A stretch of DNA of 64,000 bases from Methanohalophilus sp. RSK (GCF_003722075.1 NZ_RDSK01000009.1:1-64000), one strand, 5' to 3'. Numbered from the stretch's first letter, positions 229-7,647 are shown. A program made the numbers and translations. Notes: a model not told the origin generated them from the letters alone.

Positions 229-3200
229 TTACAGCTGTCTTCTCCTGAAACCAACATACATGGCACCCACACCTGCAAGCACCAGTACGGTTCCAACAAT
301 GTCAGCACCGGAGAAGGATGAGCCCCCGGATTCCTTATTTCTGGGGTTTTCCTTGGTCATCTCATAGCCTTCCACGTAATCGCTGCTGGATTCTGCTGAC
401 TCGGATGTTGGTTGTTGTGCAGATTCACCATAACCTCCATCTGAAGTAGTGGTGGTCTGATTGGATGCAGTACCTGTGGTTGTAGTGTTCACGATCTGTG
501 CACTGCCGACACCACCGCTGCTGGAAGAACTTTCGGAATCAGACGGGTTTTCGGATGATCCGATTGCAGCTTCTAATTGCTCCTTGTATTTGTCCATCGT
601 TTCCTGATCAACAACATCAGCACCTGGAACAGACATAATTCCATCTACATAATCGTCCAGCAAAGGGTTTCCACAGGTATGATGACAGCATGCAGGACCA
701 TTTTCAGCAACTGATTCTACATACTCTCTAACAAGAGTTTCCTTTACTTCATTGGATGGTTCCCAATAACCCTTTCTTACGGCTTCAAGCATTCTTGCGG
801 AAATCGATTGATAAGCTTCTGCATTGTTAGCATCGAACCACTCATTCATATCTTCATTAACATACAATTCATAGGTCTCCTGCCAGACACTATCATCCAC
901 AAGTTCGGGATTGGAAACTTCCCATCCCCAGAGATTATCCACAAACTCGGCCATCATGCGTCCTCCAGCATAGCCGGATTCCTGCATGCCGTCCATCCAT
1001 TTCGGATTCCAGTAGCGTGAACGTAGATTTTTCATCAGATATTCCTGCATACCCGCCATTGTGGCTGCATCCGGATCGCGGGTGTCTGATACATACATCT
1101 CGGGAGTGGTCCCTGAAACATACCTTGTTGCAAGATTCAATGCACCGAAATACTGGAAGAAATCATCATTGTCCAACGTATCATAAAGGTTGGAAGAATC
1201 CGAGTGAATGGAAGCATCCACATTGCGCAGGTTTGATGTGAGCAACTCAGAACATTTGAAACCCCAGAGATCCTTTCCGTACACGTAGCCCATCTTCTCA
1301 AGGTATATTTCAGCGATCTCGCCTTCACTATCCCAAGAGCCACTTGCAGCAATCGCGTTACCTGTTCCGATCTCATAGGTGCCATCCATTACGGCAAAGC
1401 AGCGCATGTTAGCAAGTTGACGTGCAAGCTCATCTGCTTCTTCCTCAGTCATTTCCTTTGAAAACTGTGCATATAGTTCATCATAGATGGCCGATGTACT
1501 CTCGTTCACATAGTTGGAATAGTTCCCTACAGGTGCTTTATCTGCCATTGCAACAGCATGGTCAAGCATCTTGATCTTCCCGGGGAAAGCGTCACGCATA
1601 CCCGCAGTAGCATAGACAATATCAATTCTGGGTCTGCCCGGATAATCACCATAAGAAGGCTGTAATTCTTCTTCAGGTAGTACTTCGAACTTGCTCAGGT
1701 CAATCCTGCCGTTGGCATCCCATCCCGGCTTTATACCAAGTAGGTAGAGTGCTTCTGCTTCCAGAGTACCATGGTCCCTTATGAATTCCACACCAAAACG
1801 TGAAAAAGATACTTTCCGTGGATACTCACCATGCTTGTCATAATAATCCGTGAGCATCTGTTCTGCAAGGTATTTACCCAATCTCCATGTTGCTTCGGAA
1901 GGATATAACTGCGGATCCACTCCATAAAAATTTCTGCCTGTAGGTACTGCTGAAGGATTCATTACCGGATCTGTACCAGGCCCTGGTTCAATATAACCAG
2001 CCGAGAGTGCAGACATCATCTTGTCCATCTCGGCTGCCGATCCAATTAGCCTGTCCCTGTAGACAATGCCCCTTTCCAGATCACTGGAAACTGAAGCGTT
2101 AGTCGCATTGTACACAAGCATTTGGGAATCGTTCACACTGGTATCATTAGTCACCACTTCCCAGACAAGCAGATTAACTCTGGTGTCATTCGAAGGAATT
2201 CCAAGAGGATATTCACTTTCTGGATAGAAGGCTGCACTTACGTTCTCTTCAAATTTGTTACCCATCATGGCCCGAACCATACAGGAAAGCTCATCCTTTT
2301 CAGGATATGTCATATTGGTAGAAGGAACTTCTCCCAGAACATGCATACCATAAGGAATGTTTTCTCCCTCGATTTCTTCCACATATTCATGGAGTACGTT
2401 CTTGATGAAATCTCCAAATTCACTTGTATTATAATCGTAGAGTTCAGTGACATTCAGTCCCAAATCCACACTCAGGTTCAGGTCAACAATTTCATCAATT
2501 ATCTCAACCTGATAGGCCTGTTTTGTCTGTTCACTCATTTCCGGCCCATAGTATGTTTGCATGAGTTGGGAAAGGTTGGCAATCTCACCATAACTGCCAG
2601 ACCTTTCAAGAGTAGGCGTCAAATGATCGATGATCAGGGCATTGCCCCTGTACTCTGCTGTCAGACCTTCTCCGACATTAGCAACAATGTAGGGGTAAAT
2701 GTTAGGTAGATCCTGTAATAATACAGGAGCCCATTCTTCGGTCCTGTTGAGACCGTATGTCTGTCCTGGCAGCCATTCATGAGTACCGTGTGTTCCGAAA
2801 TGGATTATTGCATCAGGATTCCACTCCTTATTGAGCCAGAGATAAAAACCAATGTACTGATGGGGCGGTGGTACAAGTGCACTGTGATAGAGAGTGTCAT
2901 CATTTTGCATCATTCCTCGGGCAGGTTGTGGCATGAGCCAGACATCACCACATTGTACCGCCGGTATCACCAGATATTTACCGGTCTCATTCTCCCAGAT
3001 CATGAGGGATTTATTCTCAGGTAAATCTTCTTCCCATGGGGCACCCCACTCCTCTATCACCTGATTCTGAAGATTTTCGGGAACTTCCTGTTCAAACCAT
3101 TCATGGTAGGTTTCCATAGGAATTAATTGCAGTCCCCATTCTGTCCTGTTTTCAACCATCTCATTCATTACTCCAGGTGCCCAGGAACCTGCATTTATTC

Positions 3201-5496
3201 CTTGGGATTGTAATTGCTCAAGAAGGACTGAGTTATTTTCAGGGATATTGGAAATCGTATAATTTTTGGAATCCATTCTTTCAAGCAAAAGTCTCATGCT
3301 TGTTATGGTATCAAGGTAACTGGCCCCGATATTATCCTTACCAGAAGGATAATTATAGTAAATCACAGCAACTTTCTTGTCTTTATTTTCCTTGAGTTTG
3401 AGATTAGCCCATTTAATGGAACGATTGCTAATCCAGTCAATCTGGGAATCAAGCGGTATGTACTGGGTGCTTTCAGTATCCGGATCATATACAGCATTAC
3501 CTATCAATATGTATTCAAAGATACCGTCCACGCTGGGTGCGATTGTTTTGTACACCATCTGGGAATTAGGAATACCCCTGTTAGCATCCGCAGGATCAGG
3601 ATCTGAAGGGACATCGGCAACTATACCCCGCAGCACCGGTACATTAAGGGCTTTAAGTTCCTCAATTCCTTTCTCATTGTTCCAATAATTTAACCTGAAA
3701 CTCTTTAGAGATATTACAGATTGAACCAGAGGAGTGCCGTTCTCATTACAGTAATATTCGGTAATATTATTGAAAGTATCAAAGCCCACCAGCACATTGC
3801 AGTCCTTGTTTTCAATGTCCTCTATCAGGGCATTTACAACATCCAGTTGTTCCTTTGTGATGTCCGATCTATGGAACCACATTCCTATAGTGGGCTTTTC
3901 AGGATCATAACTATGATTGCCTGCAGAAACATTGGAATACCATTGAATATATTCCTCGGTTGTCTCAAAGAAACGTTTCTCTGAAGCAGGATGATAGAGA
4001 CCCGCCTCAGGAATTACATCACCTTCACCTGAAATTTGCCAGCCCTCGGTCAAGAAATTCATCTTACCATATTCTCTTGAAGAATATATCAACAAGTTTT
4101 CAGCATTAATCCTGCCAGAGGAACTTTCACCCATATTAGCATAATACAGAGCAATCGTATCATTTTCCGACCCATTGGATACATAATCAAAGAAAGCAGG
4201 GGCATTTGCAGAGTTAATATCAAGCAGAGAAGAGCCGTTGTCATGCGCCTTCAGAAAAGTGCTGTTAAATTCACTGTCATAACCTATCATGTCACAGAAG
4301 ATGGCATCCTGTGTGGATAGGAAACCCGAATCAGAAACATTGCCGAGTTCATCACTCATACCACTCCAATCAGATTTATAGGAAGGTATATATGTGAAGT
4401 TTATAAATTTCGCATAGGGATTAGTAAGGCTTGCCTGCTCGATGGGTTCATTATGAGTGTAATAGACATAGGTGAAGTTCAACTGTGGCCACTCATCTGT
4501 AATTTCCGCATGATTACCATAGTTCCTTGAGAGATGAAGCAAAAAGTTCTCAGCGCTCTTCAATCCGTTTCCTGAAGATTCCATATTGTTGTAGTAGTTG
4601 CATATATGGTCATTGACAGAACCATTTGAGACATAATCAAAAAAGTCAGGTGTCCCATAGGAATTAACATCTAGCAGAGATGTGCCATTTTCATGTGGAC
4701 CGTAGAAAGTACTGTTATAAAAATCGTCATACATTATCATGTCACAGAAGATGACATCCTGTGTAGAGAGGAATCCGGAATCAGAAGCATTCATGAGCTC
4801 ATCACTGGGACTCCAATCAGATGTGTTAAAGCTTGGTATATATGTATAATCTATGAACTCAGCATAAGGATTGGTTCTGCTTGCTTTGGAAAGAGGGTTG
4901 CTGGAATCATAGGCTATATAAGTAATATTGATCACAGGCCAGCTATCAGTGATCTCAGGATGGTTCCCATAATCCCTTGAAAGATGTATCAACAGGTTTT
5001 CGGCACTTTTCCTGCCTGAATATGAGGAACTGTCCATATTATTAAAATACGTACAGATTTTATCTTCCGCCCATATTTCTTTAGTCCCGTCAGGTTTGTA
5101 ATCAAAGTAAGAAGGAATACTGGATGACCTAATAGCTAACAAAGACGTCCCATTCAGATGAGCTGCATATAATGTATCATTTAAAGGTTCCCAGCTAGGT
5201 TCCCACAACATATCGCAGAAAATTACATCCTGAGTCAGCAGGAACTCATTTAAACCGTTGGTTGAAGCATTTTGAATCTCATCACTTACCGACCATCCGT
5301 CATATGCAGGCACGAAAGTATAATTTATCTGGTCAGAATAAGGATTGCCCGAAGAAGCATTGTTCAAAATCCCTTTTTGGTCTTCTAGACCTATATAAGT
5401 AACGTTAACCTGTTCTGCCGCCGATACCGCCGGCATTGCCACTGCCAACATAATCAATACACTTAAAACTAATAAACACACTTTTCCAAATCGCAT
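229..5496 (-). CDS. cobN: Surface-anchored CobN-like chelatase subunit with three N-terminal repeats
   Basis: The protein has about 1755 residues. I chose the ATG at 5496 because the signal peptide (basic start, hydrophobic core, AVSA-AEQ cleavage-like site) begins there and a GAGGCGAT ribosome binding site precedes it; a longer reading from 5568 adds implausible sequence. Three diverged repeats of about 155 residues follow (around 30-495), each with a TQDVIFCDM or TQDAIFCDM motif. The CobN/magnesium-chelatase large-subunit region comes next, with HFGTHGTHEWLPGQ near residue 900 and CCHHTCGNP near 1600. The C-terminus is a Ser/Thr-rich linker, one membrane helix and an Arg cluster. CobN normally inserts cobalt into a corrin ring in the cytoplasm with CobS and CobT. 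This version has an exported topology and no CobS or CobT nearby, so I infer binding or handling of tetrapyrroles or metals at the cell surface. It has its own promoter and a structured leader. Confidence 0.85.
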   Translation of the reverse strand: MRFGKVCLLVLSVLIMLAVAMPAVSAAEQVNVTYIGLEDQKGILNNASSGNPYSDQINYTFVPAYDGWSVSDEIQNASTNGLNEFLLTQDVIFCDMLWEPSWEPLNDTLYAAHLNGTSLLAIRSSSIPSYFDYKPDGTKEIWAEDKICTYFNNMDSSSYSGRKSAENLLIHLSRDYGNHPEITDSWPVINITYIAYDSSNPLSKASRTNPYAEFIDYTYIPSFNTSDWSPSDELMNASDSGFLSTQDVIFCDMIMYDDFYNSTFYGPHENGTSLLDVNSYGTPDFFDYVSNGSVNDHICNYYNNMESSGNGLKSAENFLLHLSRNYGNHAEITDEWPQLNFTYVYYTHNEPIEQASLTNPYAKFINFTYIPSYKSDWSGMSDELGNVSDSGFLSTQDAIFCDMIGYDSEFNSTFLKAHDNGSSLLDINSANAPAFFDYVSNGSENDTIALYYANMGESSSGRINAENLLIYSSREYGKMNFLTEGWQISGEGDVIPEAGLYHPASEKRFFETTEEYIQWYSNVSAGNHSYDPEKPTIGMWFHRSDITKEQLDVVNALIEDIENKDCNVLVGFDTFNNITEYYCNENGTPLVQSVISLKSFRLNYWNNEKGIEELKALNVPVLRGIVADVPSDPDPADANRGIPNSQMVYKTIAPSVDGIFEYILIGNAVYDPDTESTQYIPLDSQIDWISNRSIKWANLKLKENKDKKVAVIYYNYPSGKDNIGASYLDTITSMRLLLERMDSKNYTISNIPENNSVLLEQLQSQGINAGSWAPGVMNEMVENRTEWGLQLIPMETYHEWFEQEVPENLQNQVIEEWGAPWEEDLPENKSLMIWENETGKYLVIPAVQCGDVWLMPQPARGMMQNDDTLYHSALVPPPHQYIGFYLWLNKEWNPDAIIHFGTHGTHEWLPGQTYGLNRTEEWAPVLLQDLPNIYPYIVANVGEGLTAEYRGNALIIDHLTPTLERSGSYGEIANLSQLMQTYYGPEMSEQTKQAYQVEIIDEIVDLNLSVDLGLNVTELYDYNTSEFGDFIKNVLHEYVEEIEGENIPYGMHVLGEVPSTNMTYPEKDELSCMVRAMMGNKFEENVSAAFYPESEYPLGIPSNDTRVNLLVWEVVTNDTSVNDSQMLVYNATNASVSSDLERGIVYRDRLIGSAAEMDKMMSALSAGYIEPGPGTDPVMNPSAVPTGRNFYGVDPQLYPSEATWRLGKYLAEQMLTDYYDKHGEYPRKVSFSRFGVEFIRDHGTLEAEALYLLGIKPGWDANGRIDLSKFEVLPEEELQPSYGDYPGRPRIDIVYATAGMRDAFPGKIKMLDHAVAMADKAPVGNYSNYVNESTSAIYDELYAQFSKEMTEEEADELARQLANMRCFAVMDGTYEIGTGNAIAASGSWDSEGEIAEIYLEKMGYVYGKDLWGFKCSELLTSNLRNVDASIHSDSSNLYDTLDNDDFFQYFGALNLATRYVSGTTPEMYVSDTRDPDAATMAGMQEYLMKNLRSRYWNPKWMDGMQESGYAGGRMMAEFVDNLWGWEVSNPELVDDSVWQETYELYVNEDMNEWFDANNAEAYQSISARMLEAVRKGYWEPSNEVKETLVREYVESVAENGPACCHHTCGNPLLDDYVDGIMSVPGADVVDQETMDKYKEQLEAAIGSSENPSDSESSSSSGGVGSAQIVNTTTTGTASNQTTTTSDGGYGESAQQPTSESAESSSDYVEGYEMTKENPRNKESGGSSFSGADIVGTVLVLAGVGAMYVGFRRRQL

Positions 5497-5520
5497 ATTA
5501 TCGCCTCGATAGTATGCAGC

Positions 5521-5562
5521 ACATCCCGACCCAAAAGCCCGCCAGCCGACAGGTCGGGATGT
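5521..5562 (-). promoter_or_regulatory. Structured 5' leader hairpin of cobN, with promoter upstream
   Basis: ACATCCCGACC (5521-5531) and GGTCGGGATGT (5552-5562) are perfect 11-bp arms around a 20-base GC-rich loop. The element sits about 25 bases upstream of the cobN ATG. A TATA-like TTATATAAAA on the minus strand (5627-5636) puts the expected transcription start near 5605, so the hairpin would lie in a leader of about 100 bases. CCGAC and GTCGG, separated by two bases within the element, could form an alternative hairpin that excludes the long stem. This suggests leader-based control; no known riboswitch class was recognised. Confidence 0.5.
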
Positions 5563-5636
5563 CACCACAATATTTTCAACTTAAATTTATCTACAATTTC
5601 TCCTTACATATAATCAATAAACTTGTTTTTATATAA

Positions 5637-5651
5637 CAAAAAAATAAAACG
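5637..5651 (-). terminator. Oligo-T tract ending the DUF2162-exbB-DUF2149 transcript
   Basis: Read on the minus strand, a TTTTATTTTTTT tract follows directly after the DUF2149 stop codon. Archaeal transcripts commonly end at such T-runs. It lies just before the separate TATA box of cobN, so the three small genes and cobN probably form two transcription units. Confidence 0.35.
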
Positions 5652-5653
5652 GG

Positions 5654-6013
5654 TTATCCTCCCGATTCGTTTTTACCCTCGGGCACATAAACCACCCGGC
5701 CATCTGCCAGCTGGTAGGCCGTACCCAGTGCTTCACCTGACCCGCCTCCAATTTGTTCGGTCATGTTGAGCACTTCGATGTCCTGACCTTCCTTTACGAT
5801 GATCTTCATGTTTTCCTCTCCCGGATTCTTTACAATGGTCACATCATCCGTGGGAGACAGCAGCTCAGGAAGTTGGAAGGACATCACCAGGGCCACAAGC
5901 AGGGCTACGGAGAAGACCATGGCTATGTCGAAAAGGTTGGCCACGCCTGTTAAGGGGTTCTGTTCATCTCCTTCATAAAGCAGGCCACTTCGCCTGTATT
6001 TTCGTTTTTTCAT
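5654..6013 (-). CDS. DUF2149 protein, ExbD-like partner of the proton channel
   Basis: The protein has 119 residues. The ATG at 6013 forms an ATGA overlap with the exbB stop codon and has a GGAGGGAGAGGA ribosome binding site. A basic N-terminus leads to one membrane helix (around residues 27-45, DIAMVFSVALLVALVMSF), followed by a small soluble domain ending in a VYVPEG strand. This single-helix layout, and its place after an ExbB gene, match ExbD/TolR/MotB-type partners. DUF2149 is known mainly from methanogens beside CobN-like genes (family knowledge from memory). I infer that it forms the stator complex with the ExbB-type protein and transmits proton-motive force to the surface CobN. Confidence 0.75.
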   Translation of the reverse strand: MKKRKYRRSGLLYEGDEQNPLTGVANLFDIAMVFSVALLVALVMSFQLPELLSPTDDVTIVKNPGEENMKIIVKEGQDIEVLNMTEQIGGGSGEALGTAYQLADGRVVYVPEGKNESGG

Positions 6014-6633
6014 TCCTCTCCCTCCATGCATTCAAGCAGATAATTGATATCAGCCATATCCTGCCAGTACCATCTTTTACGTACCACGGTCAGGACATAT
6101 CCTACGATACCGGCAAACAGACCGAGTACCGTTGTCGCAAAAGCAACCATCAGGTTATGAGCCAGCTGGAGGATGTTACCTTCTGCAAGACCTATAAGCG
6201 CCGGACCGAGGGGAATAAGCGTTCCCATCAGGCCTAGCATCGGGGCAACCGTGGAAAGGATCTTGGTATACTCGAGGTTCTTGGTCATTCGCACCTCATA
6301 CTCCTCGGAAAGCCAATCAATAGATGTGGCAGCACTGCTGCCAAGATGGGCAGCAGCATCCCGGGCAAATGCCATTACAAGGGAATTTTGCTTCAGTTCA
6401 CCCAGGTGTGTAGCGGCAGAATCAAAATCAGAAGATTTCACGGAATCCTGCACCTTTTTACCAATAGCTTCAAGCTGGGTGACATTGCGGTGCCTCTTGG
6501 AATATTCGGAAATGAACTCACCGATCAGAGCCAGAGATGATACAACTGCTAACAAAAGCAGTATAATAACAGGATACAATAGTGAAGAAGAAACTGTATA
6601 CATTATCTGGAATAACGAAGAATCTATTGCCAT
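6010..6633 (-). CDS. exbB: MotA/TolQ/ExbB proton channel family protein
   Basis: The protein has 207 residues. Three membrane segments are visible (about 12-36, 125-150 and 160-185), with a cytoplasmic loop between the first and second, as in ExbB and TolQ. The family signature region includes ILSTVAPMLGLMGTLIPLG. The start has GGAGTG 12 bases upstream. ExbB-type channels pair with ExbD to couple ion flow to work across an envelope. The neighbours are DUF2149 (overlapping stop and start) downstream and DUF2162 21 bases upstream. Archaea of this group lack an outer membrane, so a TonB-like role must differ from the bacterial one. Confidence 0.88.
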   Translation of the reverse strand: MAIDSSLFQIMYTVSSSLLYPVIILLLLAVVSSLALIGEFISEYSKRHRNVTQLEAIGKKVQDSVKSSDFDSAATHLGELKQNSLVMAFARDAAAHLGSSAATSIDWLSEEYEVRMTKNLEYTKILSTVAPMLGLMGTLIPLGPALIGLAEGNILQLAHNLMVAFATTVLGLFAGIVGYVLTVVRKRWYWQDMADINYLLECMEGEE

Positions 6634-6654
6634 TTTTTATTATCACTCCTTAAA

Positions 6655-7332
6655 TTAATGCTGGATTTTGATACGATTAAGTGCAAAGCCAGCCGAGATA
6701 AGAATTGCAAAGCCGATGAATGGAATAATATCGAATTCTGGGCCGCTGAAAGTCGGAAGACCCATTTGTTTTGCATGCATGTAGGCAGGGGCAATTACTG
6801 CACCCATTAAATAGAACAGGCCCACGAAAGTCATGGCATTGCCCAGGGTTGTTGGATCCTTTTTAAGCCTCCTGACAACCAGGGAAGAAGAAACGATGGA
6901 AGCAAAAAAGATGACACCGACCCCAAGTCCCAGAAGCGCACTGCTGATCTCAACGGTATTAGAAAGCAGCATAATCGACATGAAAAGGGCTGCAAGGCAT
7001 ACCGGACAGGGCAGGGAGATAACAAGGAAAGTCTTATGGGATACATCCACCCCGCAATTCCATTTTTTGGATGTGTATATTCCCACGCCCAAAAGCAAGA
7101 GAGCCATTACCACATGCAGACCCATACCAAGTTGGTAAGCATTCAGCAGGTAGGATATATCGACATAATTAAGAATTACACCTATTATTACTGATAATAC
7201 AAAATACATCCCTGCAATGGCTAATGACTGTCTGCGATCGATAGTCGAACATCCGCATCCCACTCCGGCCTTAACTGCAAACACAGCTATCGCCAGTAAA
7301 ATTCCTATGACCGTTAAATATACTGCACTCAT
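6655..7332 (-). CDS. DUF2162 family membrane protein, putative transporter
   Basis: The protein has 225 residues and about six or seven membrane helices. Notable cysteines lie in a GVGCGCS stretch near residue 25 and in LPCPVC near residue 110. The latter resembles the helix-embedded Cys pairs of CcdA/DsbD-like and metal-transport membrane proteins, although I would not assign a substrate. It is the first gene of the unit with exbB and DUF2149. GGTGG lies 14-18 bases before the ATG. The promoter carries a 19-bp dyad (7364-7382), so the unit is probably controlled by a dimeric repressor. Confidence 0.7.
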   Translation of the reverse strand: MSAVYLTVIGILLAIAVFAVKAGVGCGCSTIDRRQSLAIAGMYFVLSVIIGVILNYVDISYLLNAYQLGMGLHVVMALLLLGVGIYTSKKWNCGVDVSHKTFLVISLPCPVCLAALFMSIMLLSNTVEISSALLGLGVGVIFFASIVSSSLVVRRLKKDPTTLGNAMTFVGLFYLMGAVIAPAYMHAKQMGLPTFSGPEFDIIPFIGFAILISAGFALNRIKIQH

Positions 7333-7363
7333 TGATATACAACCACCATTATGTCGGACAAAT

Positions 7364-7391
7364 GAAACTTACTCTAAGTTTCTATTATACC
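7364..7391 (-). promoter_or_regulatory. Promoter with 19-bp perfect dyad operator of the CobN-associated operon
   Basis: GAAACTTA and TAAGTTTC form a perfect dyad with a 3-base centre at 7364-7382. It is directly downstream of a TATA-like GGTATAATAG (minus strand, 7382-7391), so it covers the region between the TATA box and the expected transcription start. A protein bound here would block polymerase recruitment or escape. The 19-bp length and narrow centre resemble DtxR/MntR-type operators (family knowledge), but no regulator gene is adjacent. Confidence 0.5.
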
Positions 7392-7527
7392 TTGTACTGC
7401 CCAATAATTAATTCACTTGACCGATTAACAAATCAATTACACTTGCTATCTCGAGTATATCCATAGTATATAAAAAAAAGTTTTAGGATAACATGTGTAA
7501 CCCATTTGGGTAACATAAATTGGCCAT

Positions 7528-7572
7528 TTATAAGGAAAAAGAAACTATCCTTATAACACTTATTATAAAAAG
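7528..7572 (+). promoter_or_regulatory. Inverted repeat and TATA box upstream of nmd3
   Basis: TTATAAGGA (7528-7536) and TCCTTATAA (7548-7556) are perfect 9-bp arms with an 11-base spacer, followed by a TTATAAAAAG box (about 7562-7571). They lie in the 315-base gap between the divergent DUF2162 and nmd3 genes. Another short dyad, ACCCATTTGGGT, is at about 7500-7511. Nothing coding was seen in the gap. Confidence 0.35.
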
Positions 7573-7647
7573 AAAGTAATAGAAAACTACATTAAAGCAG
7601 AAACCCCGACAATATGTCCAAAAGACTAATATACAACACAACATCAA

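Follow-up and report, generated by a model that had tools for sequence, protein, structure and literature searches.

A Methanohalophilus gene row with an exported CobN-like chelatase, apparently an archaeal relative of the HmuS-HmuU-HmuV system of Bacteroidota

Four genes of Methanohalophilus sp. RSK encode an exported CobN-family chelatase, an ExbB-type channel, a DUF2149 protein and a DUF2162 membrane protein. They are situated at positions 229-7332 of the window, which is the whole stretch of 64,000 nucleotides analyzed here (NZ_RDSK01000009.1:1-64000). Judged by its sequence relationships, the core of this row is an archaeal branch of HmuS-HmuU-HmuV of Bacteroidota. The best explanation of the row is an archaeal exported chelatase module, in which tetrapyrroles would lose their metal at the cell surface, ExbB and DUF2149 acting as proton-driven partners and DUF2162 as accessory, and we consider this explanation about evenly poised between right and wrong. 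It is based on homology, topology, operon-like gene order, linkage across genomes, the clade of the chelatase, a cysteine motif and the absence of ExbD and ChlI/D matches from the genome. What we infer is the direction of the reaction (removal, not insertion), the metal and the substrate, how motor and enzyme would be mechanically coupled, and what DUF2162 does. The function of HmuS, the Hmu operon and the presence of CobN-like proteins in methanogens are already published. New here are the archaeal row of S, U and V homologues with DUF2162 and the tree of the exported clade. Also new are the cysteine motif shared with HmuS, the repeated head domains, and the division of chelatases into those with an ATP motor and those with a proton channel as partner.

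Organization of the gene row

The four genes lie on the minus strand in an operon-like row and are transcribed in the order DUF2162, ExbB, DUF2149, CobN. The DUF2162 (PF09930) membrane protein of 225 aa is encoded at 6655-7332 (Pfam 8e-70) and is followed after 21 bp by an ExbB/MotA/TolQ-family channel protein of 207 aa, a homologue of HmuU (6010-6633; PF01618, 5.5e-12). The channel gene overlaps that of DUF2149 (5654-6031; PF09919, 1.9e-35), an orthologue of HmuV of 125 aa with one transmembrane helix and a small outer domain. The gene of the CobN-family (class I chelatase) protein comes last (229-5568), with an ORF of 1,779 aa which matches PF02514 at 1.4e-290 over residues 484-1607. These four genes were already listed in the original prediction, and all of them were found in place with a Pfam match each. 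The longest chelatase ORF begins at GTG, and its probable start is the ATG at codon 25 (position 5496), the same Met at which a relative (L104) starts. This start gives 1,755 aa, the length predicted earlier, and a spacing of about 157 bp from DUF2149. NMD3 and an ATP-grasp protein are the upstream neighbours of the row. HmuY, HmuR and HmuT were not found at the row by Pfam and by reading of the neighbouring genes. The genome (1.97 Mb, 99.6% complete) is from the same family as a M. acetivorans-like genome (G150), in which there are three copies, and possesses one PF02514 protein, the window chelatase.

In three related genomes, the divergent intergenic region at 7333-7647 shows strong conservation. 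A near-palindrome in it, GTTACCC/GGGTTAC, precedes a TATA-like stretch and is a candidate operator. An ArsR-type regulator gene recurs divergently upstream of DUF2162 in other loci (L110:11141-11686, L121:6937-7452, L123:11074-11619 and L124:7459-7974), and the one in L121 was confirmed by a Pfam HTH_5 match.

Relationship with Hmu and other chelatase systems

The best PDB match of the window chelatase was HmuS (9d26, 6.5e-120), ahead of CobN and ChlH. The B. fragilis hmu locus (L029), located by means of a HmuS fragment, was taken as reference and compared gene by gene. DUF2149 showed 48% identity with HmuV (E = 4e-29), which belongs to PF09919 as well (3.6e-35). ExbB showed 38% identity with HmuU (blastp, E = 2e-43), and the chelatase 32% and 25% identity with HmuS over two stretches. 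A maximum likelihood tree of the chelatase core, with a single BchH included and the branches within the exported clade partly unresolved, grouped HmuS, all archaeal exported proteins and the exported proteins of Pseudoalteromonas and Cupriavidus in one clade with 100% UFBoot. Cytosolic CobN proteins of bacteria, haloarchaea and methanogens fell outside this clade, as did BchH. The archaeal proteins were positioned beside HmuS in the clade, not within it.

HmuS is a demonstrated heme de-chelatase which possesses a signal peptide and is anchored in the membrane. The hmuYRSTUV operon of Bacteroidota combines this exported CobN-like protein with an ExbB-like HmuU and a DUF2149 protein, HmuV (PMC12583661, PMC13227078, PMC10434189), so the earlier claim that no described mechanism covers such a combination did not hold. 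In the model of the EMBO J 2025 HmuS paper, HmuU and HmuV power import through HmuR; the same paper regards the use of HmuS homologues by archaea as unclear and complete hmu operons as missing there. The archaeal row shares with the Hmu system the S, U and V homologues close together on one strand, a doubly hydrophobic exported chelatase of the same clade, the GTHG and NVGEG residues and a C-x4-C-x-N motif. It differs in having DUF2162 in the stead of HmuY, HmuR and HmuT. The chelatase gene is the last of the archaeal row, whereas that of HmuS precedes T-U-V, and the archaeal protein is without His254, the DH dyad and the Met-rich insertion and has up to three head domains. As these HmuS-defining features are missing, the archaeal protein is regarded as a member of the exported clade and not as HmuS.

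Two other groups of known proteins are comparable. The BtuS family (BtuS1/2 of B. fragilis; MSBRM_0518 and MSBRM_1640 of M. barkeri) is also CobN-like, is found outside B12 synthesis operons and is exported in B. fragilis. The CobN-like proteins of Methanosarcina barkeri were noted in a proteome study and already named BtuS there; that paper reported the entire operon to be lacking and assumed reuse of heme iron, but did not describe linked ExbB, DUF2149 or DUF2162 genes (PMC10846266). CobNST cobaltochelatase and ChlHID magnesium chelatase share the PF02514 fold and catalytic residues with the window protein, and CobN also the DD pair. However, they are cytosolic and ATP-driven through AAA+ partners, while the window protein is exported and its genome has no ChlI/D match.

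Topology and residues of the exported chelatase

The original prediction of a signal peptide, three N-terminal repeats and a C-terminal anchor was borne out by hydropathy and by repeat profiles. The signal-peptide-like N-terminus (residues 25-51, MRFGKVCLLVLSVLIMLAVAMPAVSAA; 5416-5496, minus strand) has a hydropathy maximum of 2.83. It is followed by three tandem copies of the HmuS-type head domain (domain I) at residues 54-212, 213-362 and 363-512 (4033-5409, minus strand), each with iE < 1e-76 against a profile built from the three repeats. The C-terminal membrane anchor (244-306, minus strand; hydropathy 1.81) is followed by RRR. In profile comparison, the last head with the neck matched HmuS at 99.4% probability (E = 7e-22), and the repeats alone matched the HmuS head at P = 6e-4. 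The number of head repeats varies from none to three in relatives, with three in the window. Among archaeal exported proteins, a hydrophobic segment is present at the N-terminus in 31/31 and at the C-terminus in 28/31, compared to 0/11 archaeal cytosolic proteins. The export that had been predicted for this CobN is in line with both ends of the protein. An ordinary cytosolic CobN for B12 was rejected on account of these export signals together with the missing AAA+ partner of the ChlI/D type. Each repeat possesses a CDM near HmuS Met79, the axial heme ligand of the head; equivalence with Met79 was dropped, the CDM being one alignment column off.

A full-length domain with catalytic His and Glu assigns the window protein to the class I chelatases (PF02514). 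By alignment, the GTHG motif (2785-2796, minus strand) contains H927, equivalent to HmuS His538, which is essential for heme turnover (PMC12583661), and E967 in the downstream NVGEG is equivalent to Glu577. The first HmuS dyad (His538/Glu577) is therefore kept. The second (Asp1208/His1209) is aligned with D1468-D1469 (1162-1167, minus strand), an Asp-Asp pair as in CobN, where HmuS and BchH carry Asp-His. The HmuS heme ligand His254 is replaced by Ser in the window and is His in no aligned archaeal exported protein. The Met-rich insertion is also absent from the window chelatase, which has 100 residues with 6 Met at this place compared to 194-327 residues with 10-33 Met in HmuS.

A C-x4-C-x-N motif specific to the clade is situated after the chelatase domain, where the window protein has CCHHTC (residues 1627-1632; 673-690, minus strand). 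It reads CCHHTCGN in the window, CSGFVCDN in HmuS and CTANTCGN in the Cupriavidus exported protein. The insertion is present in HmuS and in all aligned full-length archaeal exported proteins, and is absent from every aligned cytosolic protein and from the Pseudoalteromonas exported protein. It appears undiscussed in the main text of the HmuS structure paper, where cysteine terms led only to a mention of growth medium.

Some relatives deviate at these sites. Cytosolic CobN of methanogens mostly carries Cys-Cys (GCCCY) at the DD/DH site, e.g. L144:7752-11660 and L155:921-4664, possibly reflecting another substrate or metal. Second tandem exported chelatases at L126:14470-19026 and L127:1605-6164 no longer possess the His of GTHG or the DD pair but retain CCHHTC, and may be inactive partner subunits. 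At L139:10750-16335, an exported chelatase from an archaeon (1,861 aa) carries the DH pair of HmuS and BchH; its cysteine motif reads CCCALCC where the window protein has CCHHTC, and a long insertion contains domains resembling beta-sandwiches.

DUF2149 and DUF2162

In ExbB-ExbD, TolQ-TolR and MotA-MotB, as in the archaeal pair, a PF01618 channel is found beside a protein which crosses the membrane once and whose helix has an invariant Asp at its beginning. In DUF2149 this residue is Asp35, at the beginning of its sole transmembrane helix, where it would be expected in an ExbD-like stator partner, and it is kept in 137/138 sequences. The archaeal pair differs from these systems in that DUF2149 is not detectably homologous to ExbD, and in belonging to an archaeon without an expected classical outer membrane. 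Homology of DUF2149 with ExbD was rejected, as the helix Asp aligned, yet the profile match gave P = 0.13. DUF2149 may thus be called ExbD-like by position and topology only. Its AlphaFold2 model was poor (pLDDT 59).

The AlphaFold2 model of DUF2162 is all-helical (pLDDT 82) and had no PDB fold match at E <= 0.001. Conservation in 60 and 35 sequences revealed three invariant cysteines, C26 close to where the first helix ends, and C109 and C112 where a PCPxC sequence interrupts a later helix. These cysteines recall membrane thiol or electron carriers, a likeness which we offer as a guess. A relationship with CcdA/DsbD or Rnf was considered on the basis of the cysteine positions and of weak structure matches to RnfA (ranks 1, 28 and 43; TM about 0.33), but was rejected as profile comparisons were without signal. 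DUF2162 was likewise rejected as a homologue of HmuT, with no profile signal and no sequence match, though it takes HmuT's place. No paper naming DUF2162 turned up within the literature collection searched.

Linkage of the genes across genomes

Among 238 genomes of the class, 146 possess both CobN and DUF2149, 22 only CobN, 5 only DUF2149 and 65 neither (Fisher P = 6e-33, relatedness not corrected for); a chance neighbourhood was rejected on this basis. Except one genome with a weak unlisted match, the CobN-only genomes (21/22) list solely CobN of cytosolic size (<= 1,315 aa). In almost every archaeal locus read, DUF2162, ExbB and DUF2149 are neighbours, and most of the loci also contain the chelatase next to them; several archaeal loci contain DUF2162-ExbB-DUF2149 without CobN. 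Beyond the class, DUF2149 is found in further families of the phylum, and the row with a CCHHTC chelatase in 10/16 loci read (L262-L268, L271, L273 and L277); in L269 the row contains a shorter and more distant chelatase. The original prediction had been staked on conserved linkage, which in the genomes and loci read holds across genera, families and classes. Among the control genomes, DUF2149 matched only M. acetivorans. It was found in 1/198 Bacteroidota genomes, a sample of unstated composition, and this figure is not used as evidence.

The genes also occur in other settings. On a Pseudoalteromonas megaplasmid (L156:4725-9525), the genes of ExbB, DUF2149 and an exported CobN follow one another, flanked by apparent outer-membrane receptor genes and without HmuT or DUF2162. 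In the 12 kb or more covered to each side of the Cupriavidus exported homologue, there is no ExbB or DUF2149. ExbB-DUF2149 pairs lie directly beside S-layer (PF07752) proteins at L140:9919-13784 and L141:6166-9963, without DUF2162 or CobN, and beside a BatD-like protein in L149. Further copies, with or without DUF2162 and with no intact CobN nearby, are found beside FeoB and DtxR (L142:8822-13980), DtxR (L117:7988-10028) and a FeoB-like gene (L274:8806-15507).

Proposed function and alternative explanations

In the proposed mechanism, the CobN-like protein would be located on the outer side of the cytoplasmic membrane, held there by its C-terminal anchor and equipped with extra head domains. 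It would take metal from extracellular tetrapyrroles, most likely an iron tetrapyrrole, with a corrinoid or F430-type ring as further possibilities. Cytosolic class I chelatases are driven by a ChlI/D or CobS/T motor at the expense of ATP. As there is no ATP outside the membrane, ExbB and DUF2149 would serve as a proton-driven motor, and the outer domain of DUF2149 may push the chelatase through its cycle. The in-membrane cysteines of DUF2162 and the CCHHTC site of the chelatase may deal with electrons, thiols or the metal ion that is set free.

The distribution of motor proteins is consistent with this exchange. Cytosolic archaeal CobN adjoins a ChlI-like AAA+ protein, recognised by sequence, in four loci (L144, L145, L154 and L155); that of L145 has Pfam ChlI and VWA domains and is the same gene as in L144. 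This ChlI-like motor had no match at 1e-40 in the window genome or in any member of the genus. The absence of CobS and CobT claimed earlier is not knowable from a 64-kb window; what stands is that the genome contains no ChlI/D-type AAA+ partner at E <= 1e-3, CobT (PF06213) being outside this search. ExbD (PF02472) is absent from the window genome and from G150, which agrees with the predicted pairing of an ExbB channel and an ExbD-like partner without a classical outer-membrane energiser. Bacteroidota with hmu possess 2-7 ordinary ExbD proteins besides HmuV, so HmuU and HmuV need not be a general TonB energiser. De-chelation by HmuS requires NADH and not ATP (PMC12583661). Taken together, the ChlI/D split, the ATP-independence of HmuS and the distribution of ExbD suggest, without proving it, that it is the exported chelatase for which ExbB and DUF2149 work. 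Purified soluble HmuS turns heme over in vitro without HmuU and HmuV (PMC12583661), hence under these conditions the enzyme does not strictly depend on the motor. Since the pairing of S, U and V also occurs in cells that have no outer membrane, the motor may well power the enzyme, and not the outer-membrane uptake assumed for the bacterial version. That the proton motor of ExbB and DUF2149 acts directly upon a class I chelatase outside the cell, replacing the AAA+ ATPase of CobN and ChlH, is nevertheless a tentative idea, which we think somewhat more apt to fail than to hold.

The Cupriavidus exported homologue without the pair nearby also speaks against such a coupling, as do the trios without CobN and the pairs beside S-layer (L140, L141) or BatD-like (L149) proteins, according to which the motor may do other work. 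ExbB-DUF2149 could power an S-layer or other envelope protein or a DUF2162 transporter, with CobN as one client or a co-regulated neighbour, and some of the pairs and trios lacking CobN indeed have nothing recognisable beside them. This is improbable in view of the exported-size CobN which goes with the pair in the genomes and loci examined, of the CobN-negative genomes which are nearly always without the pair, and of the S-U-V grouping recurring in Bacteroidota and Pseudoalteromonas. Even less probable is a catalytically silent surface receptor, whose chelatase fold and head domains would capture and pass on metal tetrapyrroles as a stand-in for HmuY and HmuR. The three head domains of the window protein, their variable number in relatives and paralogues without catalytic residues are in its favour, and the tandem copies lacking the catalytic His and Asp (L126, L127) also count against the proposed metal removal; but H927, E967 and the DD pair are all kept in the window protein.

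For the proposed exported chelatase, removal of metal from a tetrapyrrole, whichever the ring, is about as apt to be true as false. Heme iron would be favoured by the kinship with HmuS, by the FeoB and DtxR neighbours and by the BtuS proteins of M. barkeri, which change with iron and sulfur source (PMC10846266) and may or may not be of the exported type. The missing His254, DH dyad and Met-rich insertion speak against heme. The Asp-Asp pair points to a corrinoid, as does the extent to which methylotrophic methanogens depend on corrinoids. A BtuS-like surface protein could bind or remodel corrinoids for such methanogens, the channel driving uptake or handover in place of metal removal, which is unlikely but deserves serious weight. 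The archaeal exported proteins have the CobN-like DD and the porphyrin-acting HmuS and BchH have DH, a reading based on few characterised proteins and countered by the DH of L139. Cytosolic CobN genes in another archaeal family adjoin cobalamin/iron-type ABC transporter genes recognised by eye, and the corrinoid-dependent proteomes of Methanosarcina are unusually large (PMC2667541); the BtuS family itself has been proposed for metalloporphyrin salvage (PMC6460266). However, no btu or cob genes were recognised beside the exported row, where the metal genes seen are FeoB and DtxR.

Implications

The S-U-V core is conserved in archaea that should have no HmuR import step, and with a different fourth membrane protein. 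If the motor acts on the chelatase itself, HmuU and HmuV of gut Bacteroidota would also drive HmuS, not outer-membrane import, and archaea would take metal from tetrapyrroles at their surface by the same ion-powered chemistry. Proton-motive force in place of ATP as the drive of a chelatase is now testable in the genetically tractable Methanosarcina. If true, the proposal would assign a role to DUF2149 and DUF2162, both of them families without a known function so far, and would provide methanogens with a route for anaerobic recycling of metal from dead cells.
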